Assembly: GCF_001426685.1 (NCBI RefSeq)
Contig: NZ_LMFB01000037.1
Span: forward strand, 1-64,000
DNA from: Rhizobium sp. Root483D2
GTDB taxonomy: Bacteria; Pseudomonadota; Alphaproteobacteria; Rhizobiales; Rhizobiaceae
DNA length: 64,000 nt
Direction: 5' to 3'
Under the pieces are notes generated by a model. The model had not been told where the DNA came from. It worked only from the letters and a program-made list of their open reading frames with translations, and made no database searches. Shown here in pieces: positions 46,594 through 60,771 of the stretch; the first letter of the stretch is position 1, and every line of letters starts with the position of its first letter. The position numbers were made by a program, and so were the translations under genes.

Positions 46594-48054
46594 ATGACCG
46601 TGACCTTGAAAGACCCTTCGCTGTTTCGCCAGGCCGCACTCGTCGGCGAAAACTGGATCGAAGCCGATCCGGACAACGCCATCGAGGTAAACAATCCGGC
46701 GACCGGCGAGATCATCGGCCGCGTTCCGAAACTCGGCGCTGCGGAAACAAAGGCTGCGATCGAGGCGGCACGCATCGCGCAGAAGGGCTGGGCTGCGAGA
46801 ACAGCCAAGGAACGCTGCGGCATCCTCCGCAAATGGTACGACCTGATGATCGAAAACAAGGACGATCTCGGCCGCATCCTGACGCTCGAGCAGGGCAAGC
46901 CGTTGGCAGAAGCGACCGGTGAAATCGTTTATGGCGCCAGCTTCATCGAATGGTTTGCCGAAGAGGGCCGCCGCATCTATGGCGACATGATCCCCGGTCA
47001 TCAGCCGGATAAGCGTATCATGGTGATGAAGCAGCCGATCGGCGTCGTGGCTGCGATCACCCCGTGGAATTTCCCCAATGCGATGATTACCCGCAAGGCC
47101 GGCCCCGCTTTTGCCGCCGGTTGCGCCATGGTGTTGAAGCCGGCATCGCAGACGCCGTTTTCGGCCATCGCGATTGCGGTTCTGGCCGAGCGCGCCGGGA
47201 TTCCAAAGGGTCTCTTCAGCGTCATCACCGGTTCGGCTGCGGCCATTGGCGGCGAAATGACCTCCAACCCGACCGTGCGCAAGCTCACTTTCACCGGTTC
47301 GACCGAAATCGGCACTGAGCTCTATAAGCAGAGCGCGCCGACCATCAAGAAACTCGGGCTTGAGCTTGGCGGCAATGCGCCGTTCATCGTTTTCGATGAT
47401 GCGGATCTCGATGCGGCCGTCGAAGGTGCGCTGATCGCCAAATACCGCAACAATGGCCAGACCTGCGTCTGCGCCAACCGTATCTATGTTCAGTATGGCG
47501 TTTACGATGCCTTTGCTGAAAAGTTGGCAACGGCAGTCGGCAAGCTGAAAACCGGCAACGGCTTCGATGAAGGCGTGATCCTGGGGCCGCTGATCGACAA
47601 GGCCGCCTTGAATAAGGTCGAGGAACACATTGCCGATGCGTTGAAAAAGGGTGCGCGCATCCTACAGGGCGGCAAGCCGCATGCGCTTGGCGGCACCTTC
47701 TTTGAGGCTACCATCCTGGCCGATGTTACCAAGGACATGGCGGTTGCCCGCGAAGAAACCTTCGGGCCGCTCGCGCCGCTTTTCCGCTTCAAGAGCGAAG
47801 CCGACGTGATCGAGCAGGCCAACGACACGGAATTCGGCTTGGCCTCCTATTTCTATGCCAAGGATCTGTCGCGCGTCTTCCGGGTCGCCGAAGCGCTCGA
47901 ATATGGCATGGTCGGCGTCAATACCGGCCTGATCTCGACCGCTGAAGCGCCATTCGGCGGCGTCAAGCTGTCCGGACTTGGCCGCGAGGGTTCGAAATAC
48001 GGCATCGAGGAATTCACCGAGATCAAATATGTCTGCCTTGGCGGCATTTCCTGA
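46594..48054 (+). CDS. gabD: NAD(P)-dependent aldehyde dehydrogenase, succinate-semialdehyde type
   Basis: A 486-residue aldehyde dehydrogenase of the GabD branch, oxidising succinate semialdehyde or similar short aldehydes. ITPWNFPNAMITRKAGPA, TFTGSTEIG, the glutamate motif LELGGNAPFIVF and the catalytic cysteine in NGQTCVCANR (Cys291) are intact. AAGGGA precedes the ATG at 46594; an in-frame TTG nine bases earlier is unlikely. A terminator separates it from the HpcH aldolase gene. Because that aldolase makes pyruvate plus an aldehyde, GabD may oxidise the aldehyde product. Confidence 0.9.
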   Translation: MTVTLKDPSLFRQAALVGENWIEADPDNAIEVNNPATGEIIGRVPKLGAAETKAAIEAARIAQKGWAARTAKERCGILRKWYDLMIENKDDLGRILTLEQGKPLAEATGEIVYGASFIEWFAEEGRRIYGDMIPGHQPDKRIMVMKQPIGVVAAITPWNFPNAMITRKAGPAFAAGCAMVLKPASQTPFSAIAIAVLAERAGIPKGLFSVITGSAAAIGGEMTSNPTVRKLTFTGSTEIGTELYKQSAPTIKKLGLELGGNAPFIVFDDADLDAAVEGALIAKYRNNGQTCVCANRIYVQYGVYDAFAEKLATAVGKLKTGNGFDEGVILGPLIDKAALNKVEEHIADALKKGARILQGGKPHALGGTFFEATILADVTKDMAVAREETFGPLAPLFRFKSEADVIEQANDTEFGLASYFYAKDLSRVFRVAEALEYGMVGVNTGLISTAEAPFGGVKLSGLGREGSKYGIEEFTEIKYVCLGGIS

Positions 48055-48094
48055 TGTACCCATCGGGACCTGATCTGCCAGTCAGGTCTTGAAG

Positions 48095-48127
48095 AAAACC
48101 GGCCGGATAGCTCTGGCCGGTTTTTTT
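48095..48127 (+). terminator. Rho-independent terminator after gabD
   Basis: AAAACCGGCC (48095-48104) pairs with GGCCGGTTTT (48115-48124) around 10 bases, followed by TTT. Confidence 0.88.
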
Positions 48128-48165
48128 ACTTAGCGGTAAAAGCACGAAGACAGCAGGAGACAGCC

Positions 48166-48969
48166 ATGCCCGCCCCCCAAAATACCTTCAAAGCCGCATT
48201 TCGCGAGGATCGTTTTCAGCTGGGCCTCTGGGTCGCGCTGGCCAGTCCTTACGCGGCGGAGATCGTTGCGGGCAGCGGCTATGACTGGCTTTTGATCGAT
48301 GGAGAGCATGGGCCGAACGATATTCCGCTTCTCTCGGCGCAGATCCAGGCCATCGCCCGCTCCGGCAGCCATCCCATGGTCCGGCTTCCGGTCGGGGAAA
48401 CCTGGATGATCAAGCAGATTCTCGATACCGGCGCGCAGACCTTGCTGATCCCGATGGTTGAGAGCGTCGAGCAGGCGAAGGCTCTCGTACGCGCCGTCCG
48501 CTATCCGCCGCATGGCGTGCGCGGCGTCGGTGCAGCCCTTGGCCGGGCATCGCAGTTCAGCCGGATCGGTGACTACCTTGAAACGGCCAATGACGAGATC
48601 TGCCTGATCGTGCAGATCGAGAGCCGTGCCGGCTTAGCTGCACTGGACGATATTGCTGCGCTTGAGGGGATCGACGGCCTGTTCGTCGGCCCGTCTGATC
48701 TCGCAGCCGACATGGGATATCTCGGACAGCCAGGCCATCCCGAGGTGACGGCAGCGATCAAGGACGCCTTCGATCGCATCGCAGAGGCGGGCAAGGCGCG
48801 GGGCATCATGACGCTCAGCCTTGAGCAGGCGCATATGTACCGCGAGATGGGCGCGGACTTCATGGCGATCGGCACAGACGTGACGCTGCTGGTCAGCGCC
48901 ACGACCCGGTTGCGGGAGGATTTCCTGTCCGGCGAAACGGGCAATGCCAAGCCGGTTGCCGGCTACTGA
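48166..48969 (+). CDS. HpcH/HpaI-family class II aldolase
   Basis: A 267-residue metal-dependent pyruvate aldolase. GLWVALASPYAAEIVAGSGYDWLLIDGEHGPND carries the catalytic His and acidic metal ligand region; IPMVESVEQAKALVRAVRYPPHGVRG and VQIESRAGLAALDDIAALEGIDGLFVGPSDLAADMG complete the active site. Family members cleave 4-hydroxy-2-oxoheptanedioate (HpaI), 2-keto-3-deoxy-glucarate (GarL) or 2-keto-3-deoxy-rhamnonate. Here the sugar-acid context favours a 2-keto-3-deoxy sugar acid, an inference. It faces the uxaB-like gene end to end with no gap. Confidence 0.88.
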   Translation: MPAPQNTFKAAFREDRFQLGLWVALASPYAAEIVAGSGYDWLLIDGEHGPNDIPLLSAQIQAIARSGSHPMVRLPVGETWMIKQILDTGAQTLLIPMVESVEQAKALVRAVRYPPHGVRGVGAALGRASQFSRIGDYLETANDEICLIVQIESRAGLAALDDIAALEGIDGLFVGPSDLAADMGYLGQPGHPEVTAAIKDAFDRIAEAGKARGIMTLSLEQAHMYREMGADFMAIGTDVTLLVSATTRLREDFLSGETGNAKPVAGY

Positions 48970-50064
48970 TCAGCGCCTTTCGATGATCGCGGTCAGCCTT
49001 GGCATCGCCACGTTAGGGCTCCAGGCCTTGAAATCTGCGAGCCGCCGGGTAATTTTCTCGGCGTGATGGTTGGCGATGTCGCTGATGCGGTGGTTGAGAA
49101 ACGGATTGCGGAACCGGTCGAGCGTTAGCGCGACATAGCGCTCCGCCTCCTCTCCGAGGCTCTTCGCGGAAAAGCCGGGAATGACCTCGGTCTCATAGAT
49201 CTCCATCAGCGTTGCGAAGATGTCCGGGTCTTGCAGGATGGCTTTGACGGTCTCGTCCTGAGGGCGGCCGTTTTTCAGCCAGAGATCGGCGAGCACCGTA
49301 TGGCCGAGATTGAGGATATGCAGCTTCAGCTTCTCGTAAGGCGAGAGATCGTCCACTAGCAGAATGGACGGGTGCGTGCAGGGCAGTTTCAGTCTCGGCT
49401 GGGCCTCGATGGCCCAGAGGGCATAGGGTTCCGCCACGGCGCCGGCGGGCTGTAGCGGCTCGGATACGATCCGGTCCACCAGCGTATTGCCCCAGATCAC
49501 TGTTGTTGTGAGCCATCCTGCGAAATCAGCGCCGGCGAACCGTTCTGACTGCAGATCGAGGATCACCTTTTTCAAGGTATCGCCGTTGCGGGCCACCAAT
49601 TCACAGGGAAGAACCGTCAGCGCACCGCCGCCCGCGCGATAGCGTTCATGCAACAGGACGAGCAGCTTGCCGGGAAATGATGCGGGAATGTCCGCTGCAA
49701 GATCGTCGGGACCGATGACATAACCGGTATCGCCGGTATTGGAGATCAGCACCTCCGCTTCCCTGGCCACGATCCGCTTGATTTCGTCCCAATCGGCTGC
49801 CGTTGATAAAGCCCTCGCGACGCTTCTGACCTGCTGGGTGCGGTCGATTTCGGCCCCTTCCGCGAGCCCGCGAATGATGACTGGAAAACCGTCCGGCGCC
49901 GAAAGGGCCGTCAGCCGTCCCGCGCGTTCCACGGATCCCGTGGTTTGGACGATGGTGATCTTTCCCAGCGCCTCGCCTTTTTCCAGGGCTTCGCTGACGA
50001 AGAGATCGGCATGGGCCTGCAGGAAGCGGCTGGTTCCAAACTGGACGATAGGCGTCGTGGTCAT
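48970..50064 (-). CDS. Mannitol dehydrogenase-family protein, tagaturonate reductase (UxaB)-like
   Basis: About 364 residues, a long-chain polyol/uronate dehydrogenase. The N-terminal VQFGTSRFLQAHADLFVSEA is the nucleotide-binding start typical of UxaB-like proteins, and the catalytic motif K-x4-N-x2-H is in KLHILNLGH. ATG 50064 follows the divergent gap; upstream frame-open sequence overlaps the regulator gene and is not coding. It lies just downstream of the GntR-type gene on the same strand. Likely reduces tagaturonate to altronate, feeding UxaA; other ketose or uronate substrates are possible. Confidence 0.82.
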   Translation of the reverse strand: MTTTPIVQFGTSRFLQAHADLFVSEALEKGEALGKITIVQTTGSVERAGRLTALSAPDGFPVIIRGLAEGAEIDRTQQVRSVARALSTAADWDEIKRIVAREAEVLISNTGDTGYVIGPDDLAADIPASFPGKLLVLLHERYRAGGGALTVLPCELVARNGDTLKKVILDLQSERFAGADFAGWLTTTVIWGNTLVDRIVSEPLQPAGAVAEPYALWAIEAQPRLKLPCTHPSILLVDDLSPYEKLKLHILNLGHTVLADLWLKNGRPQDETVKAILQDPDIFATLMEIYETEVIPGFSAKSLGEEAERYVALTLDRFRNPFLNHRISDIANHHAEKITRRLADFKAWSPNVAMPRLTAIIERR

Positions 50065-50078
50065 ATCTTTGAATCCGG

Positions 50079-50957
50079 CTATTGAATGGACTGGAGCAGC
50101 GTTTCGCGCGCCGATTTCAAATGGCGGCGGCAGGCCGCCTCGACGCGCGCAGGGTCTCGGGAGCGCAGCGCAGCGATATAGTCGAGATGTTCTTCCAGCG
50201 CCCGGGCGTTGCGCTCGCGCGCATTCGTCTTGTTCCACTGGTAGTGATAGTGAAAGACGATGGTGATGATGTCATAGAAATCGACGATAAACCGGTTGCT
50301 CGACGATGTGTGCACGAGAAGATGGAAGCGCTCGTCGAGTTCCGAGAATTCCCTGTAGCGATTGTCGATATCGGCAAGGATTTCGCGGTGCAGCGTTTCG
50401 ATCCGGTCAAGATCCGCCCAGGCCGGATGCTCCGGGGCCAGCGCCGTAAAGCTGGCGGCCGAGCGCAGTTCGAACATTTCGCGCACTTCCGTCAGTTCCA
50501 GTGCGAATTCGCGGGTAAAACCCTTCAGGATCCAATGGCTGTTCGGCCGTTTTTCGATCAGGCCGAAGCGGCTGAAGCGGATGAGGAATTCGCGCACGCT
50601 GGTCGTGCCGGTGCCGATGTCGCGGGCGAGTTCCAATTCATTGATCTGCATGCCGGGCTCGGCACCACCGGCCAGAATCCGGCGCATGAAACTGCGCTCG
50701 ATGATATCGGATAGCGAATCGGTTTCCTCCGCCGGGTAATAATCCTCCGGTTTCGGCTGGCGCAGCACCACCTTTGCCCGCTTGTCCCAGGCCAGCAGTT
50801 GCAGCTCTTCCATCCGCGTCAGGATGGCGCGGATGGTGGTGCGGCTGACGCCGAGCGTCGTGCCGAGCTCCGGCTCGGATGGCAGGCTTGAGGTTTCCGC
50901 CAGGAGCTTGAGGCAACGGTTGAAGGCGTCCTTGAAGACGGTGTTCTGTTTCGCCAT
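50079..50957 (-). CDS. GntR-family (FCD) regulator with two winged-helix segments
   Basis: A 292-residue regulator. A first GntR-like winged helix lies at about 15-62 (SLPSEPELGTTLGVSRTTIRAILTRMEELQLL) and a second HTH-like segment at about 107-145 (LELARDIGTGTTSVREFLIRFSRFGLIEKRPN). An all-helical FCD effector domain follows (about 150-290, with metal-binding-type His in RFHLLVH and FHYHYQW). FCD regulators of this kind often control uronate or sugar-acid genes. It is divergent from uxaA and upstream of the uxaB-like gene, so it is the probable local regulator. Confidence 0.82.
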   Translation of the reverse strand: MAKQNTVFKDAFNRCLKLLAETSSLPSEPELGTTLGVSRTTIRAILTRMEELQLLAWDKRAKVVLRQPKPEDYYPAEETDSLSDIIERSFMRRILAGGAEPGMQINELELARDIGTGTTSVREFLIRFSRFGLIEKRPNSHWILKGFTREFALELTEVREMFELRSAASFTALAPEHPAWADLDRIETLHREILADIDNRYREFSELDERFHLLVHTSSSNRFIVDFYDIITIVFHYHYQWNKTNARERNARALEEHLDYIAALRSRDPARVEAACRRHLKSARETLLQSIQ

Positions 50958-51156
50958 GACTGTATCGACCGGATGTGAGTTCTGTAGACCCGAAGCGCGG
51001 GCTTTGTTTTTGAGGGTGCTCTATCCGGTCCGATCGATCCTGTCTTGGGTTTTGAAGTAAGGTTTCATCGTGTTTCGTCCCTGATTTGTCTTTGATCTGA
51101 TTTTGCTTTGGCATGGTGGTGACGGGGAGCATGGCAGCCGCATCCCATAATACCCA

Positions 51157-51188
51157 TTGACGATAAACTGTCTATTGTGGATAAAAGA
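51157..51188 (+). promoter_or_regulatory. Candidate uxaA promoter overlapping a dyad operator
   Basis: TTGACG (51157-51162), 17 bases, GATAAA (51180-51185). The imperfect dyad TCTATTGTGGATAAAAGA (51171-51188) covers the -10 region. Its right half, TGGATAAAAGA, recurs at 54431-54441 before the transporter genes. Placement over the -10 element suits a repressor. Confidence 0.45.
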
Positions 51189-51240
51189 CAAAATGAATGA
51201 GAGGCTCATTCGGATAAAACCGTCCAGGGAGATACCAAGG

Positions 51241-52746
51241 GTGACCGCACCTTCCTTCATCGTTTTGTCGCCGGACGACAATGTCGCCGTCGCATCGCTG
51301 GCCATTGAGGCGGGCGGTGAACTGCCGGGTGGCGTGCGCGCCAATGGCAGGATCGATCCCGGCCACAAGGTGGCGATCCATCCCGTCTATGTCGGCGAGC
51401 CGGTGGTGAAATACGGCCAGGCGATCGGCCGGGCAACCGTCGAGATCGCTGCGGGCGACCACGTTCATTCCCACAATCTGGCCTTCGATCAGGACCGGCT
51501 GTCGATCGGCGCGCCGGTGCCGCCGGAAGCGGCGAGCAGTGCCGACAGGGCGCGCACCTTCATGGGCTACCGCCGCGCCGACGGGCGCGCCGCGACCCGC
51601 AATTTCATCGGCATCATCGCCAGCGTCAACTGTTCCACCACCGTCTGCCGCGCAATCGCCGAGGAGGCCAACAAGGTCATCCTGCCGCGTTATGAGGGTA
51701 TCGACGGTTTCGTGCCGATCGTCCATGATCAGGGCTGCGGCATGAGTTCGACCGGCGACGGCATGAAGAACCTGCATCGAACGCTGGCCGGCTATACGCG
51801 CCATGTGAATTTCGGCGGCGTGCTAATGGTCGGACTCGGCTGCGAGGTGAACCAGCTGACGCTCTACGGTCAATCCGGAGCGGGTGCCGGAAAACGGCAT
51901 TTCAACATTCAGGATGCCGGCGGTTCGCGCCGTGCTGTCGCCCGCGCGCTCGGTGTGCTCGAAGAAATAGCAGCGGAAGTCGGAACGGCCAGGCGGATTG
52001 CGATCCCGGTCAGCGAAATCATCGTCGGCCTGCAATGCGGCGGTTCCGATGGGCTTTCAGGCATCACGGCGAATCCCGCTCTGGGAGCGGCCGTCGATAT
52101 TCTGGCTGGCGCCGGCGGCACGGCCATCTTGTCGGAAACCTCCGAAATCTATGGTGCCGAACATCTGCTGCGCAGCCGCGCCGTCAATGATGGCGTTGCC
52201 GAAAAGCTCGACGGCCTGATTTCCTGGTGGGAAGATTATGTCGCCATGCATGGCGCTTCGCTCGACAACAATCCGTCGCCGGGCAACAAGCGCGGCGGCC
52301 TGACCACGATCCTGGAAAAATCGCTCGGTGCCGTCGCCAAGGGCGGCCGCTCGCCGCTGACGGCGGTCTATCATTATGCCGAGCGGGTGACGGAACATGG
52401 CCTCGTGTTCATGGATACGCCCGGCTACGATCCGGTCTCGGCAACGGGGCAGGTGGCGGGTGGCGCCAATGTCATCACGTTCACCACCGGCCGTGGCAGT
52501 TGTTTCGGTTCGCGCCCCTGCCCGTCGATCAAGCTGACGAGCAACACTGCGCTTTACCGGGCCATGGAAGAGGACATGGATATCGATTGCGGCACGATCG
52601 CCACCGGCGATGCGACGATCGCCGGCATGGGCCGCGATATCTTCGACCTGATCATCGATACGGCGTCGGGCAAGAAAACCAAGAGCGAACTGTTCGGTTA
52701 CGGCGACAATGAATTCGTGCCCTGGCACCTCGGCGCGACACTTTGA
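51241..52746 (+). CDS. uxaA: Altronate dehydratase (UxaA), full-length fused form
   Basis: About 501 residues. An N-terminal SAF domain (HKVAIHPVYVGEPVVKYGQ) is joined to the catalytic domain: NCSTTVCRAIAE, HDQGCGMSSTGDGMKNLHRTLAGY, VGLGCEVNQ and GLQCGGSDGLSGI, with cysteines typical of metal-binding UxaA. It dehydrates D-altronate to 2-keto-3-deoxygluconate; related proteins act on other sugar acids. I chose GTG 51241, nine bases after AGGGAG; the frame stays open 84 bases further upstream, through the promoter-like region. It heads a plus-strand group with the aldo/keto reductase and FucU-like genes. Confidence 0.87.
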   Translation: MTAPSFIVLSPDDNVAVASLAIEAGGELPGGVRANGRIDPGHKVAIHPVYVGEPVVKYGQAIGRATVEIAAGDHVHSHNLAFDQDRLSIGAPVPPEAASSADRARTFMGYRRADGRAATRNFIGIIASVNCSTTVCRAIAEEANKVILPRYEGIDGFVPIVHDQGCGMSSTGDGMKNLHRTLAGYTRHVNFGGVLMVGLGCEVNQLTLYGQSGAGAGKRHFNIQDAGGSRRAVARALGVLEEIAAEVGTARRIAIPVSEIIVGLQCGGSDGLSGITANPALGAAVDILAGAGGTAILSETSEIYGAEHLLRSRAVNDGVAEKLDGLISWWEDYVAMHGASLDNNPSPGNKRGGLTTILEKSLGAVAKGGRSPLTAVYHYAERVTEHGLVFMDTPGYDPVSATGQVAGGANVITFTTGRGSCFGSRPCPSIKLTSNTALYRAMEEDMDIDCGTIATGDATIAGMGRDIFDLIIDTASGKKTKSELFGYGDNEFVPWHLGATL

Positions 52747-52777
52747 CGGGCGGCCGCCAAAGCGGAGGAGAGACTTG

Positions 52778-53797
52778 ATGAACGTGAGAAAAATCGGCCA
52801 GACCGACCTGTCCGTTACCGAATATAGTTTTGGCACGGCGCCGCTCGGCGGCATGTACCGGGCCTGCCCGCGCGAAACCGCGATGGAAACGCTGGAGGCC
52901 GCCTGGACCGCCGGTCTCCGGTTCATCGATACCGCCCCCTGGTATGGGTTTGGCCTGGCCGAACGGCGCGTCGGCGATTTCCTGCGCGACAAGCCCAAGG
53001 GCAGTTACGTTCTATCGACCAAGGTTGGGCGGCTGCAGCGGCCGGTCGCCGATGACAAGGTGCCGAGCTACGGTTTCGTCGATCCGCTGCCCTTTGAAAC
53101 GGACTATGACTATTCCTATGACGGTATCATGCGGTCTGTCGAATTCAGCTATGCCCGCCTTGGGCTCAACCGCATCGATATTCTTTTCGTCCACGATATC
53201 GGCGTCTATACGCATGGAGCGGAGCGCAACGCGGTCTATCTTCGGCAATTGCTGGATGGCGGTTTGAAAGCGTTGGATGAGCTGAAGTCGAGCGGCGCGA
53301 TTGCGGCTTACGGGCTGGGCGTCAATGAAGTGCCCGTTTGCCTCGATGTGATGGCCGAGGCGGATATCGACTGTATCCTTCTGGCCGGGCGCTATACGCT
53401 TCTTGATCGAACCGCCACCGCCGAACTGCTACCGCTTTGTGAGAAAAAGAAAACCTCGCTGGTGGTTGGCGGCGTATTCAATTCGGGTATTCTGGCCACC
53501 GGTCCGGTGGAGGGATCACATTTCGACTATATGCCGGCAACGCCGGACGTTCTCAACAAGGTGCGGGCGATGGAGGCTATTGCGCGATCTGAGGGCCTGC
53601 CGCTGGCAGCGCCGGCGATCCAGTTTCCTCTGCAGAGCCCGGCGGTGGCCTCGGTTCTGCTTGGAACAGCCAAGCCGTCGAGCCTGATACGGAATATGGA
53701 GTTGACGGAGCGGCGTTTGCAGCCGGATGACTTCACGGCCTATGAAGCGCATACGCTGGTCGCCCCGGAACTCGGCACGGATGCCGTTCGGGTCTAG
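52778..53797 (+). CDS. Aldo/keto reductase, L-fucose/L-galactose dehydrogenase-like
   Basis: About 339 residues of a TIM-barrel aldo/keto reductase. The catalytic tetrad is visible: Asp and Tyr in DTAPWYGFGLAERRVG, Lys in LSTKVGRL and His in LFVHDIGVY. This branch includes D-threo-aldose (L-fucose) 1-dehydrogenase and L-galactose dehydrogenase, which oxidise the sugar to its lactone. GGAGGAGAG precedes the ATG at 52778. It is 31 bp after uxaA and 29 bp before the FucU-like gene, so the three are probably one operon. Confidence 0.86.
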   Translation: MNVRKIGQTDLSVTEYSFGTAPLGGMYRACPRETAMETLEAAWTAGLRFIDTAPWYGFGLAERRVGDFLRDKPKGSYVLSTKVGRLQRPVADDKVPSYGFVDPLPFETDYDYSYDGIMRSVEFSYARLGLNRIDILFVHDIGVYTHGAERNAVYLRQLLDGGLKALDELKSSGAIAAYGLGVNEVPVCLDVMAEADIDCILLAGRYTLLDRTATAELLPLCEKKKTSLVVGGVFNSGILATGPVEGSHFDYMPATPDVLNKVRAMEAIARSEGLPLAAPAIQFPLQSPAVASVLLGTAKPSSLIRNMELTERRLQPDDFTAYEAHTLVAPELGTDAVRV

Positions 53798-53826
53798 CCG
53801 GCTTTCAAGAGACAAAGGAATAAGGA

Positions 53827-54273
53827 ATGCTGAAGGGAATACATCCATTGCTCGGTCCGGAATTGCTGCATGCGATCCGCACGATGGGACATGGGGACGA
53901 GATCGTGATTGCCGATGCCAACTTTCCGGCCAGCACCATGGGCCCGAAGGTCGTGCGGGCGGACGGGGTCGATGCGCTGAGCATAACAGAGGCGATCCTG
54001 GCACATATGCCGCTCGATACATTCGTGGATGAGTCCGCCTGGCGCATGGAAGTCGTCGGCGATCCGCAGGCGGTGCCGGATGTCTGCGTCAAGTTCCAGA
54101 GCCTGGTCAACAAGCTTGCCGGTGATTTCAAGGTCGTGCCGATCGAACGCTTCGCCTTCTATGAGCGTTCGCGCAAGGCCGCCTATATTGTCGCGACGAC
54201 AGAATTCCGGCTCTACGGAAATATCATCTTGAAAAAGGGTGTCGTGCATCCGCAAGAACTCTACCGCGTCTGA
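53827..54273 (+). CDS. fucU: FucU-type sugar mutarotase (RbsD/FucU family)
   Basis: A 148-residue protein. MGHGDEIVIADANFPA and RFAFYERSRKAAYIVATTEF with YGNIILKKGV are hallmarks of FucU (fucose mutarotase) more than RbsD. It interconverts alpha and beta anomers of L-fucose or related aldoses so that the dehydrogenase receives the right form. Its position between the aldo/keto reductase and a sugar transporter fits. L-galactose shares the configuration of L-fucose and could be the true substrate. Confidence 0.86.
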   Translation: MLKGIHPLLGPELLHAIRTMGHGDEIVIADANFPASTMGPKVVRADGVDALSITEAILAHMPLDTFVDESAWRMEVVGDPQAVPDVCVKFQSLVNKLAGDFKVVPIERFAFYERSRKAAYIVATTEFRLYGNIILKKGVVHPQELYRV

Positions 54274-54382
54274 TGCACGCTGGTACCCGGCCCATGGAGG
54301 TGGGCCGGTTCATCTTCGGGGTGAAAAAACAAAGGCTTGGCGTTGGGAGGAAAGCAATGTTCAAGGCAAATTTCGACCGCTT

Positions 54383-54398
54383 GCAATTTCGAAATTGC
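54383..54398. promoter_or_regulatory. 16-bp perfect palindrome, LacI-type operator candidate
   Basis: GCAATTTCGAAATTGC is a perfect palindrome with a central CG, the shape of many LacI-family operators. It lies 115 bp upstream of the binding-protein gene and 26 bp before the second putative GntR-type site. Confidence 0.45.
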
Positions 54399-54423
54399 TG
54401 AGATAGCTTGCCAAGGCAAAATG

Positions 54424-54441
54424 TTTTTTATGGATAAAAGA
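54424..54441. promoter_or_regulatory. Second copy of candidate GntR-type operator
   Basis: TTTTTTATGGATAAAAGA, an imperfect dyad, shares TGGATAAAAGA with the site at the uxaA promoter. It lies 72-89 bp upstream of the transporter's first gene. A regulator-gene-linked 11-base match at two promoters of one pathway is unlikely by chance but unproven. Confidence 0.45.
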
Positions 54442-54512
54442 TCGAACTGTTTGCGTCTTGCAGCCCGGTCTGAGGAGAACTGAACAAGACGTTGTTGGAG
54501 GAGAACAACACC

Positions 54513-55502
54513 ATGACCCTTATGAAGAATATCCTGTCGCGCCGCGCCTTTACCAGCCTGGCCGGTGCCGCTGTTTTCGCGACGATGATGCCGGTGGCGT
54601 CGTTTGCGCAGGATGTCACCATCCCGATCATCGTCAAGGATACGACCTCGTTCTACTGGCAGATCGTTCTGGCCGGCGCCCGCGCTGCCGGCAAGGATCT
54701 CGGCGTCAACGTGCCGGAACTCGGCGCCCAGTCGGAATCCGACATCAACGGCCAGATCACGATCCTGGAAAATGCCGTTGCCGGCGCTCCGGCCGCTGTC
54801 GTTATCTCGCCGACGGAATTCAAGGCGCTTGGCAAGCCGATCGATGAGGCAGCCAAGGCCGTGCCGATCATCGGTATTGATTCCGGCGCTGATTCCAAGG
54901 CCTTCACCTCGTTCCTGACCACCGACAACACCCAAGGGGGCCGTATCGCCGCTGATGGTCTTGCTGCGGCGATCAAGGAAGCAACCGGCAAGGAAGAAGG
55001 GGATATCGCCATCATTACCAGCCTGCCGGGCGTCGGTTCGCTGGATCAGCGCCATAACGGCTTCGTCGAGCAGATCACGGCCAAATATCCGGGCCTCAAG
55101 GTCGTGGCCGACAAATATGCCGACGGCCAGGCCACCACCGGCCTCAACATGATGACAGACTTGATCACCGCAAACCCGAACCTCGTTGGCGTCTTTGCAT
55201 CCAACCTGATCATGGCGCAGGGCGTTGGCCAGGCGATTGCTGAAAACAAGCTCGGCGATAAGATCAAGGTTATCGGCTTCGACAGCGACGAAAAGACGGT
55301 CGGCTTCCTCAAGGAAGGCGTTCTCGCCGGCCTCGTCGTCCAGGACCCCTATCGCATGGGCTATGACGGCATCAAAACCGCTCTTGCTGCATCGAAAAAG
55401 GAAAAGGTCGAGGCCAATGTCGATACCGGTGCAAACCTGGTGACGAAGGCCAACATGGCTGAACCGAAGATCGACGCGCTCTTGAACCCCAAGGTCAACT
55501 GA
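54513..55502 (+). CDS. Sugar ABC transporter, periplasmic binding protein (CUT2 type)
   Basis: A 329-residue periplasmic sugar-binding protein. A signal peptide (RRAFTSLAGAAVFATMMPVASFAQ, cleavage after AQ-like site) precedes a type I periplasmic binding fold: IIVKDTTSFYWQIVLAGARAAGKDLG, LTTDNTQGGRIAADGLA, and VGFDSDEKTVGFL-like segments. It delivers sugars to a ribose/galactose-type ABC permease. GGAGGAG lies 12 bases before the ATG at 54513. A hairpin follows the stop (55514-55539). Confidence 0.9.
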   Translation: MTLMKNILSRRAFTSLAGAAVFATMMPVASFAQDVTIPIIVKDTTSFYWQIVLAGARAAGKDLGVNVPELGAQSESDINGQITILENAVAGAPAAVVISPTEFKALGKPIDEAAKAVPIIGIDSGADSKAFTSFLTTDNTQGGRIAADGLAAAIKEATGKEEGDIAIITSLPGVGSLDQRHNGFVEQITAKYPGLKVVADKYADGQATTGLNMMTDLITANPNLVGVFASNLIMAQGVGQAIAENKLGDKIKVIGFDSDEKTVGFLKEGVLAGLVVQDPYRMGYDGIKTALAASKKEKVEANVDTGANLVTKANMAEPKIDALLNPKVN

Positions 55503-55513
55503 TCCGAACATTG

Positions 55514-55539
55514 CGGCAGGCCGTCCAAACGGCCTGCCG
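55514..55539 (+). repeat. Intercistronic hairpin after the binding-protein gene
   Basis: An 11-bp stem, starting CGGCAGGCCGT (55514-55524), pairs with 55529-55539 around CCAA. There is no T-run, so it is more likely an mRNA-stabilising or attenuating hairpin than a full terminator, as seen in sugar ABC operons. Confidence 0.65.
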
Positions 55540-55620
55540 TCTGTTGCATGATGTCATCCAGATCCGTTTCGACATGGCTGGCCATTTTAAAACGGAATTT
55601 GGACCCGGAGGAGAGGCGCC

Positions 55621-57171
55621 ATGACCGGACTTCAAGATGTCAGCCACCGGCACGAGGGCGCGGCGGCAATTGCCAAGCACCCTGTTCCCAAGGGCGAACC
55701 GATCCTGGAACTGCGCGGCCTGCAGAAGAAATACGGGGCCGTCGAGGCCCTGAAGCCGGCAAATATCACCTTCCTGTCCGGCGAAATCCACGCGATCGTC
55801 GGCGAAAACGGCGCCGGCAAATCGACGCTGATCAAGCTCCTGACCGGCGTCATCCGGCGCACATCCGGCGAGGTCTTCTGGTGCGGCGATGCGGTGCAGC
55901 TTGCGACGCCCAATGAAGCGATTTCGCGTGGCATCAATGCAGTGCATCAGGAAGTCGTGCTCTGCCGCCATCTGTCGGTTGCGGCCAATATGTTTCTGGG
56001 CGACGAAATCAACAAAAACGGCCTGATGCGCAAGCGCGCCATGACCGATGCCGCCCAGGCCGTGCTCGACGATCTCGGTTTCAATCTCCCCGCTGCCGCT
56101 CTTCTCAGCGACCTGACGATCGGCCAGCAGCAACTGGTGGCGACGGCGCGCGCGGCGATGCGCGGTACCCAGTTTCTGATCTTCGATGAGCCGACCGCTT
56201 ACCTCACCCGCCAGGAATCGGCGCAGCTCTTCCGGCTCATTCGCCGGCTACAGGGCGAAGGCGTCACCATCGTTTATATCAGCCACCGCATGGAAGAGGT
56301 TTTCGAGCTGGCCGACCGGGTTTCGGTCCTGCGCGATGGCACCCATATCGGCACCCGCAACATCGCGGAGACCAACGATGCCGAGCTGATCTCGATGATG
56401 ATCAACCGCACCATCGAGCAGATCTATCACAAGGAAACGCTGCCGATCGGCGCCACCATCGTTGAGACGCGTGGCCTTTCCGGTCCAGGATTTTCCGATG
56501 TTTCGCTATCAGTGCGGGCAGGCGAAATCGTCGGTCTCTATGGCCTGATCGGCGCCGGGCGCAGCGAATTCGCCCTCGGGCTTTATGGCCGCCAGCCGCT
56601 CAGCGCCGGCGAAGTCTACTGGCAGGGCAGCAAGGTGAAGATCCGCAATGAGCGCGATGCCATGGATCTCGGCATTGCGCTCGCGCCCGAGAGCCGCCGC
56701 GACCAGGGGCTTTGCCTTAACCTGCCGATCGGGCTCAATATCAATCTTCCGGTCTTTGACCGGCTATCGCGCGGCCTGACCATCAATCGCGCGCGTGAGA
56801 TCGAGAATGCCGATCGCCAGATCAAGGACCTGAAGATCAAGACACCGACGCGGCGTGTCCTGGCCTCGGCGATGTCCGGCGGCAACCAGCAGAAGATCGT
56901 CATCGGCAAATGGCTGAGCCATGGCGCCAAGCTGTTCATCTTCGACGAGCCGACCGTCGGCGTCGATGTCGGCACCAAGGCGGAGATCTACCGGCTGTTT
57001 GCCCGGCTTCTGGAGCAGGGCGCAGGTATCATCCTGATTTCGTCCTATCTGCCGGAGGTCTACGAGCTGTCCGACCGGCTGCATGTGTTCCGGCAGGGAA
57101 GACTGGTTGCCAGCCACACCTATCGTAGTGCATCGCATGAAGAAGTGCTGACCCAGGCGATCGGCGTCTAG
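55621..57171 (+). CDS. Sugar ABC transporter ATP-binding protein (RbsA/MglA type, duplicated)
   Basis: A 516-residue ATPase with two ABC domains. The first has Walker A GENGAGKST, signature-like LTIGQQQLVATARA and Walker B FLIFDEPTA. The second has a degenerate Walker A (GLIGAGRSE), the signature SGGNQQKIV and Walker B LFIFDEPTVG, as usual in CUT2 ATPases. It energises the transporter formed with the binding protein and permease. Starts 118 bp after the binding-protein stop. Confidence 0.93.
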   Translation: MTGLQDVSHRHEGAAAIAKHPVPKGEPILELRGLQKKYGAVEALKPANITFLSGEIHAIVGENGAGKSTLIKLLTGVIRRTSGEVFWCGDAVQLATPNEAISRGINAVHQEVVLCRHLSVAANMFLGDEINKNGLMRKRAMTDAAQAVLDDLGFNLPAAALLSDLTIGQQQLVATARAAMRGTQFLIFDEPTAYLTRQESAQLFRLIRRLQGEGVTIVYISHRMEEVFELADRVSVLRDGTHIGTRNIAETNDAELISMMINRTIEQIYHKETLPIGATIVETRGLSGPGFSDVSLSVRAGEIVGLYGLIGAGRSEFALGLYGRQPLSAGEVYWQGSKVKIRNERDAMDLGIALAPESRRDQGLCLNLPIGLNINLPVFDRLSRGLTINRAREIENADRQIKDLKIKTPTRRVLASAMSGGNQQKIVIGKWLSHGAKLFIFDEPTVGVDVGTKAEIYRLFARLLEQGAGIILISSYLPEVYELSDRLHVFRQGRLVASHTYRSASHEEVLTQAIGV

Positions 57172-57213
57172 CATCATGAAAAGACCGGATAAGAAAATGC
57201 GTGGAGGAAAATC

Positions 57214-58188
57214 ATGAGCGTAGAGACCACAACGGAAACCGCCCCGGTGCCGAAGAAGGGCATGAACATCCTGTTCGGCCTGACCCTGCTCGGGCTCCTG
57301 CTGTTCCTCTGGCTGCTTCTCGGCCTCTCCACGACGAGTTTCTGGACCTCCAACAATATCAGCAACCTGCTGCGGCAGGGCGCCATGACGGCGATCCTTG
57401 CGGTCGGGCAGACCTTCGTCATCATTACTGCCGGTATCGATCTGTCCGTCGGCGCCGTGGTCGGCTTCTCCAGTGTCACGGTCGCCTGGCTGCTGCAGCA
57501 TGGCGTGCCGCTCTGGCCGGCCATGGGCATTACGCTTCTGGTCGGTGTGGCGATCGGCGCCTTCCATGCCTTCGGCATCGTCCGCATGGGCCTGCCCGCC
57601 TTCATCATCACGCTGGCGACGCTGACCTCGCTGCGCGGCATCGGCCTCCTGGTGACAAACGGTTCGACCATATCGATCAGCGACGAGTCCTTCACCAATT
57701 TCTCGCGCGCCGATTTCCTAGGCATTCCCAGCCTGTTCTGGATGGTGATCGTCGTCGCGATCCCGGCCTATATCTTCCTGCACCTCAGCCGCTGGGGCCG
57801 CTATCTCTTTGCAGTCGGCTCCAACAGCGAGGCCGCGCGTCTCTCCGGCGTCAATGTCAATCGCACGATCTATCTCGCCTATATCCTGTCTTCCACCTGT
57901 GCTGCTTTTGTCGGCCTGCTTCTCGCCTCGCGCATCGGCATCGGCAATGCCACGCAGGCCGAGGGCTGGGAGTTGCAGGCAATCGCCTCATCGGTGATCG
58001 GCGGCACCAGCCTGTTTGGCGCGGTGGGGTCAGTGCATGGGCCGCTGCTCGGCGCCTTCATCCTCGCAACCATCAACAACGGCGCCAATCTGCTGAACGT
58101 CAACGCGTTCGTGCAGCGCATCATCACCGGCGTGCTGATCATCGTCATCGTCTATTTCGACCAGCTGCGCCGCCGCGGCTCGCGCTGA
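57214..58188 (+). CDS. Sugar ABC transporter permease (RbsC type)
   Basis: A 324-residue inner-membrane permease with about 8-10 transmembrane helices. QTFVIITAGIDLSVGAVVG is the family motif for ribose-type permeases, and GTSLFGAVGSVHGPLLGAFIL the C-terminal one. It follows the ATPase by 42 bp and precedes the zinc dehydrogenase by about 80 bp. Substrate is inferred from the enzymes around it. Confidence 0.92.
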   Translation: MSVETTTETAPVPKKGMNILFGLTLLGLLLFLWLLLGLSTTSFWTSNNISNLLRQGAMTAILAVGQTFVIITAGIDLSVGAVVGFSSVTVAWLLQHGVPLWPAMGITLLVGVAIGAFHAFGIVRMGLPAFIITLATLTSLRGIGLLVTNGSTISISDESFTNFSRADFLGIPSLFWMVIVVAIPAYIFLHLSRWGRYLFAVGSNSEAARLSGVNVNRTIYLAYILSSTCAAFVGLLLASRIGIGNATQAEGWELQAIASSVIGGTSLFGAVGSVHGPLLGAFILATINNGANLLNVNAFVQRIITGVLIIVIVYFDQLRRRGSR

Positions 58189-58268
58189 TCCCTGCGGCAA
58201 CCAGCGGTTCGATTCCAGGCGGTTGCCGTTACCATCCATCTGACCTGAGACTGCAAGGAATGCCTGCC

Positions 58269-59288
58269 ATGAAAGCGGCCATCTGCCCGGAGCCCGGGCG
58301 CCTGGATATGATCGACAGACCGGCGCCGGGTTCGCCGCCAAAAGGCTGGGCGCGCCTTGCGGTCAGCCATGTCGGCATCTGCGGCACCGACTATCATATC
58401 TTCGAGGGCAAGCATCCCTATCTCGAATATCCCCGCGTCATGGGCCACGAAATCTCGGCGACGGTGATTGAGCCCGGTGAAGGTGTATCCCTGACGCCGG
58501 GCACGCCCGTCATCGTCAATCCCTATCTGTCCTGCGGCACCTGCGTCGCCTGCCTGAAGGGCAAGCCGAACTGCTGCACGGCAATCAAGGTTCTGGGCGT
58601 GCACACGGACGGCGCGCTCTGCGAGGAAATCCTCGTGCCTGAGACAAATCTCTATCCAGCCGGCGATCTTTCGCTGGAGGCTGCTGCAACGGTGGAGTTC
58701 CTGGCGATTGGCGCCCATGCGGTTCGCCGCTCGCTGGCGCCGGCCGGCTCACGGGCGCTCGTCATCGGCGCCGGACCGATCGGACTTGGCACGGCGCTGT
58801 TCTCGCGCATTGCCGGCCATCAGGTAACGCTGCTCGATGCCAGTGCCGAACGTTTGCAGATGGCGGCCGAACGGCTTGGTTTTGCCGATGGAATTCTGGC
58901 AGGGGATGGCGCCTTCGATGCTGTGCTATCTGCTACGGGCGGCGACGGGTTCGACGTGGTCTTCGATGCCACCGGCTTCGGCGGCTCGATGGAGAAATCC
59001 TTTTCCTTCGTCGCGCATGGGGGTTGCCTGGTCTTCGTCAGCGTCGTGAAGGACGACATCCGCTTCGCCGATCCCGAATTCCACAAGCGCGAAATGATGC
59101 TGGTCGGCAGCCGCAATGCGACACGGCAGGATTTCGAGCATGTGGCAGCCTCCATTCGCGCAGGCCATGTGCCGGTCTCGTCGCTGATCACGCACCGCAC
59201 CACGCTGGATGCGGTGATCAGCGACCTGCCGCGCTGGGCGCATGAAAAGACCGGGCTGATCAAGGCTGTGGTCAAGATTTCCGCTTAA
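58269..59288 (+). CDS. Zinc-binding alcohol dehydrogenase, L-galactonate oxidoreductase (LgoD/YjjN)-like
   Basis: A 339-residue medium-chain dehydrogenase. The catalytic zinc motif is in VGICGTDYHIFEG and GHEIS; the structural zinc cysteines are in CGTCVACLKGKPNCC; the NAD motif is VIGAGPIGLGTALF. Segments such as YPRVMGHE, GVHTDGALCEE, HAVRRS and DPEFHKREMMLVGSRNAT closely resemble, from memory, Escherichia coli YjjN (LgoD), which oxidises L-galactonate to D-tagaturonate. Start 58269 is chosen with AAGGA nine bases upstream; ATG 58260 is an alternative. It closes the transporter operon. Confidence 0.84.
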   Translation: MKAAICPEPGRLDMIDRPAPGSPPKGWARLAVSHVGICGTDYHIFEGKHPYLEYPRVMGHEISATVIEPGEGVSLTPGTPVIVNPYLSCGTCVACLKGKPNCCTAIKVLGVHTDGALCEEILVPETNLYPAGDLSLEAAATVEFLAIGAHAVRRSLAPAGSRALVIGAGPIGLGTALFSRIAGHQVTLLDASAERLQMAAERLGFADGILAGDGAFDAVLSATGGDGFDVVFDATGFGGSMEKSFSFVAHGGCLVFVSVVKDDIRFADPEFHKREMMLVGSRNATRQDFEHVAASIRAGHVPVSSLITHRTTLDAVISDLPRWAHEKTGLIKAVVKISA

Positions 59289-59434
59289 CATCGGCGGCAT
59301 CGAAACCCTTTACCGACTGTCAAGGCCTCTGTGGCAGGCTTGTCAGGCCTTGTCAGAGAAGCTTTGCGGCATATTTATTGCGTCGCACAAAAAAGGTGCT
59401 AGTGTCGGCGTTGCTTGCGGACACGAAAAACAAA

Positions 59435-59448
59435 ATGCAAAGTTGCAT
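59435..59448. promoter_or_regulatory. Dyad upstream of phaZ, PhaR-type site candidate
   Basis: ATGCAA-AG-TTGCAT, a perfect 6-bp inverted repeat with TGC/GCA half-sites, lies about 49 bp before the phaZ start. PhaR repressors of PHB genes recognise TGC-containing dyads. No other feature was found in 59289-59496. Confidence 0.4.
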
Positions 59449-59496
59449 CCTGATGGAGCGGCGTTGTCGTTTACGGTAACAAGGAGAACGCTGCCG

Positions 59497-60771
59497 ATGT
59501 TCTACCAGCTTTACGAACTCAACCACGCGATGATGGCGCCCTGGCGCGCGGCGGCAGACGCCATGCGGCTCGCCTATGCCAATCCGCTGAACCCGATTTC
59601 GCACACCTATATGGGCAGGGCCGCCGCTGCCGGCCTCGAAGTTTTCGAGCGCACGACCCGCCGCTACGGCAAACCGGAATTCGGACTGCCCGAAACGGTG
59701 ATCGATGGCGACGCAGTCAAGGTGCGCGAACGGACCGTCTGGCGTCAGCCCTTTTGCAATCTCATTCATTTCGAACGCGCTGTTCCGAAGGGCAGGGCTT
59801 CCGATCCGAAAGTGCTGATCGTTGCCCCGATGTCCGGTCACTACGCAACGCTGTTGCGCGGCACCGTCGAAGCGCTGCTGCCGCAGTCCGATATCTACAT
59901 CACCGATTGGATCGATGCCCGCACGGTTCCCTTGACCGAAGGCACGTTCGACCTCGATGACTACATTGATTACGTCATCCAGATGCTGCATTTCCTCGGC
60001 CCCGACACGCATGTCATCGCCGTCTGTCAGCCGGCAGTGCCGGTTCTGGCCGCCGTCGCGCTGATGGAAGCCAATGACGATACGCTGTCGCCGTCGTCGA
60101 TGACGCTGATGGGTGGTCCGATCGACACGCGCATTAACCCAACAGCGGTCAACCAGCTTGCCAAGGAAAAGCCGCTCAGCTGGTTCCGCGATAATGTCGT
60201 GATGCCGGTGCCCTTTCCGCAAGCCGGCTTCATGCGCCCGGTCTATCCAGGCTTCCTGCAGCTCTCAGGCTTCATGTCGATGAACCTTGACCGCCATCTG
60301 ACGGCGACCAAGGATTTCTTCGAGCATCTCGTCAAGAATGATGGCGACGCCGCCGAAAAGCACCGCGATTTCTATGATGAATATATGGCGGTGATGGATC
60401 TGACGGCGGAATTCTATCTGCAGACCGTCGAGGTCGTCTTCATGCAGCATGCTCTTCCGAAGGGCGAGATGATGCATCGCGGCCAGCGGGTGGATACGAC
60501 GGCGATCCGCAAGGTGGCGCTGTTGACGGTGGAAGGCGAGAACGACGATATTTCCGGCGTCGGCCAGACGCAAGCCGCACAGACGATCTGCACCAATATC
60601 CCGGAGAACATGCGCCTGCACTATATGCAGCCGGATGTCGGCCATTACGGTGTTTTCAACGGCTCTCGTTTTCGCCGCGAAATCGCGCCGCGCATCGCCG
60701 CTTTCCACCGCGAACATGCCCGCAACGCCAAGCCGGTGCGTCAGGTGATCAAGGGCGGCAAGACGGGCTGA
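59497..60771 (+). CDS. phaZ: Intracellular poly-3-hydroxybutyrate depolymerase
   Basis: A 424-residue PHB depolymerase of the intracellular amorphous-granule type. The lipase-box position reads VCQPAVP with Cys177 as nucleophile instead of Ser, as in Ralstonia PhaZ1. The start MFYQLYELNHAMMAPWRAAAD is the family's, and LLTVEGENDDISG holds the catalytic Asp region and DVGHYGVFNG the His. AAGGAGA lies nine bases before the ATG. A single gene; it releases 3-hydroxybutyrate from storage granules. Confidence 0.92.
   Translation: MFYQLYELNHAMMAPWRAAADAMRLAYANPLNPISHTYMGRAAAAGLEVFERTTRRYGKPEFGLPETVIDGDAVKVRERTVWRQPFCNLIHFERAVPKGRASDPKVLIVAPMSGHYATLLRGTVEALLPQSDIYITDWIDARTVPLTEGTFDLDDYIDYVIQMLHFLGPDTHVIAVCQPAVPVLAAVALMEANDDTLSPSSMTLMGGPIDTRINPTAVNQLAKEKPLSWFRDNVVMPVPFPQAGFMRPVYPGFLQLSGFMSMNLDRHLTATKDFFEHLVKNDGDAAEKHRDFYDEYMAVMDLTAEFYLQTVEVVFMQHALPKGEMMHRGQRVDTTAIRKVALLTVEGENDDISGVGQTQAAQTICTNIPENMRLHYMQPDVGHYGVFNGSRFRREIAPRIAAFHREHARNAKPVRQVIKGGKTG

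Follow-up and report, generated by a model that had tools for sequence, protein, structure and literature searches.

Which sugar is degraded by the products of a gene cluster at positions 46594-59288 of a 64,000-nucleotide stretch of Rhizobium sp. Root483D2 (contig NZ_LMFB01000037.1; hereafter, the window) is the question addressed here. A preliminary description, made from the sequence alone, had proposed a complete locus for the catabolism of L-galactose (or L-fucose), with its own transporter and regulator. L-galactose occurs in plants, in algal galactans and in vitamin C metabolism, and experimental work has resolved few bacterial pathways for it. The best reading of the evidence is that the locus serves the catabolism of L-galactose by an LgoD-type route, with a probability that we place at about one half (0.52), and that it is possibly shared with L-fucose.

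Eleven intact open reading frames span the region, and the enzyme families, CUT2 transporter and GntR/FCD regulator that the preliminary description had placed in one locus are all found among them. In the following list, as throughout the text, the substrates given are proposals.

46594..48054, + strand: aldehyde dehydrogenase (ALDH) of the GabD type (NADP-dependent succinate-semialdehyde dehydrogenase; NF008415), a neighbour probably outside the pathway
48166..48969, + strand: HpcH/HpaI-family aldolase (Pfam PF03328)
48970..50064, - strand: short UxaB-like reductase of the mannitol dehydrogenase family, 364 aa (NF002969 best, under its cut-off); proposed D-tagaturonate reductase
50079..50957, - strand: GntR/FCD regulator with two GntR-type winged helices (PF00392 twice, PF07729)
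51169..51190, strand not assigned: operator 1, TGTCTATTGTGGATAAAAGACA, between the regulator and dehydratase genes
51193..52746, + strand: UxaA/GarD-family dehydratase (SAF, GD_AH_second and GD_AH_C domains); proposed D-altronate dehydratase
52778..53797, + strand: aldo/keto reductase (AKR; PF00248); proposed L-galactose (L-fucose) 1-dehydrogenase
53827..54273, + strand: FucU-like mutarotase of the RbsD/FucU family (PF05025, 137 bits)
54422..54443, strand not assigned: operator 2, TGTTTTTTATGGATAAAAGATC, upstream of the transporter genes
54513..55502, + strand: CUT2 sugar-binding protein (SBP; 85% identical to 4RXT / Arad_9553)
55621..57171, + strand: CUT2 ABC ATPase (PF00005, two stretches)
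57214..58188, + strand: CUT2 ABC permease (PF02653)
58269..59288, + strand: zinc dehydrogenase (40% identical to E. coli LgoD); proposed L-galactonate 5-dehydrogenase

The regulator and UxaB-like genes, with 14 nt between them, form a leftward pair (50957 to 48970), and a rightward run (51193 to 59288) carries the genes for the UxaA-like enzyme, AKR, FucU-like protein, SBP, ATPase, permease and zinc dehydrogenase, in this order. The aldolase gene is convergent with the UxaB-like gene and is preceded by the ALDH gene.

In the proposed route, the CUT2 transporter would take up a sugar of the L-galacto/D-arabino configuration, the FucU-like protein would interconvert its anomers and the AKR would oxidise it to the lactone, which in this organism would open spontaneously or through another lactonase and, in some relatives, through a lactonase encoded in the operon. 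The LgoD-type zinc enzyme would then convert L-galactonate into D-tagaturonate by oxidation at C5, reduction of D-tagaturonate by the short UxaB-like enzyme would give D-altronate, and the UxaA-like enzyme would dehydrate D-altronate to 2-keto-3-deoxygluconate (KDG). KDG could proceed through a KDG kinase encoded elsewhere in the genome or through the neighbouring HpcH aldolase. The GntR/FCD protein, with its tandem winged helices, would control two operators, the first situated between the dehydratase operon and the regulator gene itself, the second before the transporter genes, making the locus inducible; L-fucose and D-arabinose may share the transporter, AKR, dehydratase and aldolase. The locus holds candidate genes for all the roles of an L-galactose pathway except the lactonase.

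Enzymes of the proposed route

The zinc dehydrogenase is proposed to be an L-galactonate 5-dehydrogenase of the LgoD type, yielding D-tagaturonate. Its full-length identity to E. coli LgoD is 40%, compared with 29% for RspB, and the motifs that we take to be its zinc sites are intact (C38 in CGTD, GHE at residues 59-61 and CxxCxxCx7C from residue 89). Phylogenetic placement bears out its earlier assignment to the LgoD type within the sampling used: LgoD branches as the sister of a family of 95 rows that includes the window enzyme (support 96/78), and seven other E. coli relatives (RspB, YdjJ, YdjL, GatD, IdnD, Ahr and Tdh) lie outside this grouping, in a tree that has long branches at the join, places LgoD outside the 95-row family and was built without BVU_0222 and LguD. 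The tree drew on 138 of 141 matches that passed filters, from which 103 rows were kept, including the window enzyme, and to which eight E. coli relatives were added; eight of the 103 rows do not belong to the group formed by LgoD and the 95. In four genomes (G217, G073, G070 and G169) the zinc-enzyme homologue contains a single in-frame stop (TAG, TAG, TGA and TGA, respectively), which might reflect gene decay, an error of sequencing or a stop codon close to where the match ends.

The product of the UxaB-like gene is 30% identical to E. coli UxaB and about 120 residues shorter (364 versus 483 aa). Shortness characterizes its relatives: the 112 with at least 45% identity all occupy the 10-residue bins between 360 and 420 aa, as counted over rows of 320-560 aa without stops. 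Residues K247, N252 and H255 are invariant in alignments of 18 and 33 sequences and correspond, by analogy, to the Lys-x4-Asn-x2-His arrangement of catalytic residues in enzymes of the mannitol dehydrogenase family. The family and motif agree with the UxaB-like label of the preliminary description, but the protein has 364 aa instead of about 480 and misses the tagaturonate reductase cut-off. In a tree of these proteins, of which only the lengths and one grouping are used, as one of its rows (G000_C6_L141) is in the wrong frame and the E. coli branches are long, a protein encoded on contig 16 of the same genome (G000_C16) groups with UxuB.

All three domains of the UxaA-like enzyme (SAF, GD_AH_second and GD_AH_C) are above their Pfam cut-offs, and its identity is 34% to UxaA and 37% to GarD. 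Four of its cysteines have aligned counterparts in E. coli UxaA, and four conserved cysteines have been reported for the UxaA/GarD superfamily (COG2721; PMC6336799). The proposed substrate is D-altronate, with L-galactonate, L-fuconate or D-arabinonate also possible, as identity does not decide among them. This enzyme is the sole member of PF20629 found in its genome. Members of PF20629 were present in 82 of 84 genomes with the zinc enzyme versus 113 of 163 without it, in a comparison that ignores kinship. A strict coupling of zinc enzyme and UxaA was rejected: all 40 chosen zinc-enzyme genomes carry a PF20629 member, yet so do 195 of 247 in the family baseline, and the signal is modest.

The idea that loci devoid of a UxaA-like gene rely on a copy in a hexuronate operon was mostly unsupported by 11 stretches from relatives, each surrounding a UxaA-like gene; a twelfth stretch in this set was the uxaC region of the Root483D2 genome itself. 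One copy (L246) lies near UxuB, UxaC and UxuA, two (L241 and L245) near another AKR and a lactonase-family gene, and in the remaining 8 stretches none of the other query genes was found. The second clusters of L241 (8.6-14.7 kb) and L245 (7.3-10.9 kb) comprise AKR, lactonase-family and UxaA-like genes, with a FucU-like gene also in L241, and both genomes lack a UxaA-like gene in the main locus.

The five PDB sequences closest to the AKR are all named L-galactose dehydrogenase (E-values 3.9e-29 to 2e-20), followed by IolS (8.7e-14), in a comparison with 43 entries of which none is named L-fucose dehydrogenase. The FucU-like protein is 45% identical to E. coli FucU. As the preliminary description had remarked, no lactonase was found in the window; the nearest family match in the genome (34%) is on contig 8. 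In R. herbae, a lactonase-family amidohydrolase gene (Pfam PF04909) overlaps the end of the zinc-enzyme gene by 4 nt, and of 16 genomes searched, four (G045, G138, G104 and G176) have a lactonase-family gene directly behind the zinc-enzyme gene. The presence of such a gene at the operon end in relatives supports the notion that this operon produces an aldonolactone.

Regulator, operator and extent of the regulon

The regulator contains two PF00392 stretches, which taken alone score 27.5 and 26.9 bits (cut-off 27), and the remainder matches PF07729. Two GntR stretches were likewise seen in all four relatives examined, and the median length of 132 regulator relatives is 296 aa. Two winged helices may explain the length of the operator, a 22-bp near-palindrome of which the window has two copies, at 51169 and 54422. 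The 6.04-Mb genome contains no further site within 2 mismatches of a 20-base pattern (reversed-pattern controls, 1 and 1); this pattern was built from both window sites, which have zero mismatches by construction.

Conservation of the operator was assessed with a weight matrix built from 12 sites, both window sites included, at a score threshold of 10. The reference set comprised 73 loci with an SBP at least 70% identical to that of the window (hereafter, CUT2 loci), of which 25 were fetched through the zinc enzyme and 48 through the UxaB-like protein, with some genomes represented twice. Scores of at least 10 were obtained before the SBP gene in 69 of the 73 CUT2 loci, before the UxaA-like gene in 54 of 57, and before the regulator gene in 72 of the 73, with 50 of 53 for loci outside this set, the sites of the regulator and UxaA-like genes often being one shared site. 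With a simpler operator consensus, composition shuffles gave 0.5% or less. Sites of this strength were found upstream of the aldolase gene in 4 of 44 loci and upstream of the ALDH gene in none of 40. Judging from their position and conservation, both sites would be bound by the regulator, which presumably acts as a repressor responding to an inducer. The operator appears to mark the limits of a regulon comprising the regulator and UxaB-like genes on one side and the genes from the UxaA-like to the zinc enzyme on the other.

The preliminary description had given every enzyme of the block a place in the pathway, a claim that finds no support for the ALDH and the aldolase, whose genes lack the operator marking the rest. 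The ALDH scores 859 bits against GabD (NF008415), over the curated equivalog cut-off of 828, and eight of its nine closest solved sequences are named succinate-semialdehyde dehydrogenase, the other one aldehyde dehydrogenase. It is under the cut-offs for D-glyceraldehyde dehydrogenase (365 versus 760) and lactaldehyde dehydrogenase (398 versus 650). Its identification as either of these, and with it the pathway step formerly assigned to it, was rejected on the basis of these curated cut-offs and of the missing operator; it is most likely an unrelated GabD, outside the pathway. The gap between the ALDH and aldolase genes contains, as read by eye, a hairpin-like repeat followed by T residues.

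The aldolase scores 367.9 bits against the HpaI model (cut-off 368.8) and is 48% identical to E. coli YfaU and 45% to GarL. It could cleave KDG or 2-keto-3-deoxyfuconate, and nothing was found that links its gene to the operator-defined regulon. The lack of uxaC and kdgK in the window, which is correct as an observation, had been invoked against a plain galacturonate pathway. This argument was rejected, since both kinds of gene occur elsewhere in the genome: uxaC lies with UxuA- and UxuB-like genes on contig 16, and a match resembling KDG kinase (45% to a Thioclava sugar kinase) is on contig 6. With an ALDH that is most likely an unrelated GabD, an aldolase outside the regulon, no lactonase found and a UxaB-like gene in just 7 of the 25 CUT2 loci collected with the zinc enzyme, the evidence does not support calling the locus complete.

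Conservation of the gene set and nature of the substrate

The regulator gene was found in all 73 CUT2 loci and the AKR gene in 72, with lower counts for the UxaA-like (57), FucU (47), aldolase (44) and ALDH (40) genes; the zinc enzyme was present in 43 of the 48 loci fetched through the UxaB-like protein. The regulator, AKR, transporter and zinc enzyme make up a constant core, and the remaining enzymes come and go, the UxaB-like gene being an optional part of the locus. In S. meliloti Ak57 the locus lacks the UxaB-like and FucU genes and is annotated with the same surroundings (nitroreductase, gabD and hpaI on one side; phaZ, phosphoribosylanthranilate isomerase, trpB and trpA on the other), in a record labelled pSymB that has gyrB, trp and accD. 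The flanks of the window locus mark this conserved position, with a nitroreductase-family gene at 45740-46342 and a probable polyhydroxyalkanoate depolymerase gene at 59350-60771 (synteny with S. meliloti phaZ).

Pairing of the enzymes was also evident when loci were collected by the UxaB-like protein. Among 80 loci, the top of 584 when ordered by resemblance to the window protein and hence rich in close relatives, 68 were fully flanked; in these, a zinc enzyme with at least 45% identity was encoded within 10 kb of the UxaB-like gene in 64 and a UxaA-like enzyme in 46. A less selected family sample comprised 20 of 28 UxaB-like matches. In Thioclava and Thalassospira the gene order is GntR, zinc enzyme, UxaB-like and UxaA-like, followed by a sugar kinase in the former and by a TRAP system in the latter, and Rhizobium rhizogenes (L216) has a PAAT-type ABC system between its UxaB-like and zinc-enzyme genes. 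This recurrence beyond the L-fucose-like setting provides the best evidence that the zinc, UxaB-like and UxaA-like enzymes act serially on a hexonate.

Several observations weigh against the L-galactose reading. With their best NCBIfam models, the zinc enzyme reaches 162 bits (NF007489, cut-off 376) and the UxaB-like protein 218.5 bits (tagaturonate reductase NF002969, cut-off 359), and the FucU-like protein scores 122.4 bits against L-fucose mutarotase NF011949 (cut-off 141). Of the 25 CUT2 loci obtained by way of the zinc enzyme, only 7 have the UxaB-like gene, and several genomes of CUT2 loci without it show only long, weaker NF002969 matches elsewhere. In the family sample, a zinc enzyme with at least 45% identity accompanied the UxaB-like gene in just 11 of 20 loci, a UxaA-like enzyme doing so in 10; the difference from the 64 of 68 stems from the preference of the 80-locus set for close relatives. 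A twelfth locus (L046) has its zinc enzyme just beyond the fetched stretch, four others have only a 34% relative and another four none; three of the four 34% relatives were in the tree, all outside the LgoD group. Zinc enzymes of the same family also occur in L-fucose-type clusters (L032, L196, L197 and L207) and in loci with only GntR and transporter genes (L034 and L037). Two of the UxaA-like copies described above (L237 and L240, both among the 8 stretches without other query genes) lie by a galactonate dehydratase, and not in a hexuronate operon. Finally, the S. meliloti binding protein SMc02774 has a Kd of 3.6 nM for L-fucose (1.6 uM for L-rhamnose), expression of its gene rises on D-fucose (6.7-fold), pyruvate (4.9) and L-fucose (4.2), and no assay with L-galactose was found in the part of PMC3454389 covered here.

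Relatives of the regulator are also encoded in loci such as L034 and L037, which have only an ABC transporter and the zinc enzyme, without AKR, UxaA-like or UxaB-like genes, which suggests the uptake of a sugar acid or polyol; L034 carries a strong operator match.

The window SBP is 85% identical to 4RXT (Arad_9553) and 91% to its Ak57 orthologue. Its structural model is poor (mean pLDDT 45), and Foldseek and VIA-align still rank 4RXT first; 4RXT presumably holds D-arabinose. For the CUT2 ATPase, AraG, XylG and RbsA are the best NCBIfam models, none of them reaching its cut-off. Gene order, the reported core (Q33-N329) and four ligand residues suggest that SMc02774 is the orthologue of the window SBP: if the core starts at Q33, its residues K10, R148, N199 and Q245 correspond to K42, R180, N231 and Q277, all of which are invariant. 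The gene next to SMc02774 is annotated as L-fucose dehydrogenase (PMC3454389). The configuration at C2 to C4 is the same in L-fucose, D-arabinose and L-galactose, and the transporter data fix the class of configuration and not the sugar.

The nanomolar affinity for L-fucose of this SBP orthologue (PMC3454389) and its conserved ligand residues are what one would expect of a locus for the non-phosphorylating catabolism of L-fucose (or D-arabinose), in which the zinc and UxaB-like enzymes would play side roles. The AKR would yield the lactone, the UxaA-like enzyme would dehydrate L-fuconate (or D-arabinonate) directly, the HpcH aldolase would release pyruvate and L-lactaldehyde (or glycolaldehyde), and the aldehyde dehydrogenase would finish the route. 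The optional UxaB-like gene and the presence of a FucU-like gene fit such a locus, and so does the report of an enzyme of the UxaA/GarD superfamily that uses D-arabinonate and, weakly, D-altronate, L-fuconate and L-galactonate (PMC6336799). However, the LgoD-type zinc enzyme, present in 43 of 48 loci, would be left without a step, the ALDH is a GabD and both it and the aldolase lack the operator, and the D-arabinose and L-fucose clusters of P. mimosarum do not cross-react (PMC6336799). Moreover, S. meliloti already has an L-fuconate dehydratase: strain 1021 has a match on pSymB, and in RCAM1115 this enzyme is annotated beside an FAH-family hydrolase and a short-chain dehydrogenase/reductase (SDR), an L-fucose-type cluster. 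The possession by S. meliloti of separate L-fucose-type genes, besides the Ak57-type locus, leaves L-galactose as a likely job of the latter, and we regard a locus for L-fucose or D-arabinose as unlikely.

A shade more unlikely, in our estimation, is a dual locus for both L-fucose and L-galactose, with common uptake, AKR and dehydratase, to which the zinc and UxaB-like enzymes would be an add-on inverting C5 of L-galactonate on the way to KDG. Binding of L-fucose by the SBP orthologue (PMC3454389) agrees with this possibility, as do the combined loci predicted in Halomonas and the dual-specificity TRAP transporter cited with them (PMC5507952). In L196, L197 and L207, all from Xanthobacteraceae, the UxaB-like gene is back to back with an L-fucose-type cluster containing L-fuconate dehydratase, SDR, zinc enzyme, lactonase, AKR and ABC genes, and these loci are natural candidates for a dual system; L218 likewise joins L-fuconate dehydratase, lactonase, AKR, zinc enzyme and UxaB-like genes, with no ABC genes within its stretch. 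The Root483D2 genome, in turn, gives no sign of a dehydratase using L-fuconate, a dedicated L-fucose cluster not having been searched for.

With regard to L-galactose as the substrate, the zinc enzyme groups with LgoD, which was a check suggested in the preliminary description, and the AKR, UxaB-like and UxaA-like enzymes, regulator and CUT2 transporter fit the published route (PMC12632266), so that this part of the preliminary proposal holds as the preferred reading, and L-fucose and D-arabinose keep a share of the probability. A broader and tentative interpretation, which we consider doubtful, is that of a widespread alphaproteobacterial L-galactonate module made up of a short (~365 aa) tagaturonate reductase, an LgoD-type zinc enzyme, a UxaA-type dehydratase and a double-headed GntR/FCD protein reading a 22-bp operator. 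This module would be joined to varied transporters and, in rhizobia, to an L-fucose-type uptake and oxidation operon, creating one locus for two plant L-sugars in which C5 of one is inverted.

Comparison with known systems

The three reactions proposed after L-galactonate are those of E. coli LgoD, UxaB and UxaA, whose genes are scattered in E. coli and whose UxaB has 483 aa versus 364 here. Bacteroides vulgatus, which differs from the window host in phylum and transporter, has an L-galactose cluster that is said to be without dedicated reductase and dehydratase. Its BVU_0219 and BVU_0222 products are alike in converting L-galactose through the lactone and L-galactonate to D-tagaturonate (cited in PMC12632266).

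The conversion of L-galactose through D-tagaturonate and D-altronate to KDG has been published for the lguABCDEF cluster of Luteolibacter LG18, which has a dual role in L-glucose and L-galactose catabolism (PMC12632266). As proposed for the window, an AKR-type L-sugar dehydrogenase that clusters with L-galactose dehydrogenases is encoded together with L-galactonate dehydrogenase, tagaturonate reductase, altronate dehydratase and a regulator. In contrast, the LG18 cluster includes a 2-keto-3-deoxy-6-phosphogluconate aldolase, leaves a C4 epimerase and the KDG kinase outside and has a regulator annotated as Btr-type, and neither a CUT2 transporter nor FucU was found in its description. The same authors found a six-gene, L-galactose-only set of Lgu orthologues in no organism.

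An order of chemistry equal to that proposed here is found in the lgn system of Paracoccus 43P, compared by its description only, in which L-gluconate is converted through 5-keto-L-gluconate and D-idonate, and D-idonate dehydratase belongs to the same UxaA/GarD superfamily (PMC6336799). The window locus could in principle act on such another aldonate, but its transporter, FucU-like protein and L-galactose-dehydrogenase-like AKR indicate the L-galacto configuration and L-glucose is presumed absent from nature (PMC12632266), which makes this a very improbable explanation. The Herbaspirillum D-arabinose cluster (C785_RS13685) also combines an AKR with a dehydratase of the UxaA/GarD superfamily; it differs in having COG1028 and COG3970 (FAH) enzymes after the dehydratase, and no LgoD- or UxaB-type enzyme was found in its description (PMC6336799).

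Within the rhizobia, the S. meliloti genes SMc02772-SMc02775, encoding the L-fucose-binding transporter and a putative L-fucose dehydrogenase (PMC3454389), probably constitute the orthologous locus, and the Ak57 locus is alike in gene order and neighbours, differing in the UxaB-like and FucU genes that it lacks. In our literature searches we did not find the rhizobial locus described as one for L-galactose, nor, in the portions of the sources covered, an earlier account of its arrangement (uptake at the sugar level, double-headed regulator and operator).

The closest parallels at the level of gene sets come from Halomonas and Chromohalobacter. The combination of lgoD, uxaA and uxaB has been put forward as the signature of L-galactonate catabolism, and combined L-fucose/L-fuconate/L-galactonate loci, with lgoD, uxaA and either uxaB or the non-orthologous uxaF beside L-fucose genes, have been predicted in Halomonas, in a paper that also cites a TRAP transporter specific for both L-fuconate and L-galactonate (PMC5507952). 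The short reductase described here may or may not be identical with this UxaF. These loci differ from that of the window in using TRAP transport for acids instead of CUT2 transport for the sugar, and the section of PMC5507952 on them does not mention an AKR, FucU or a tandem-helix regulator; if the tentative module interpretation holds, they would be its gammaproteobacterial counterpart at the acid level. The window locus is a variant of a known pathway, given that its chemistry is known (PMC12632266) and that lgoD-uxaA-uxaB loci had already been predicted (PMC5507952). As a conserved rhizobial locus with a defined operator and a short reductase family open to assay, it would give a function to genes called altronate dehydratase, mannitol dehydrogenase and L-fucose transporter in many plant-associated genomes.

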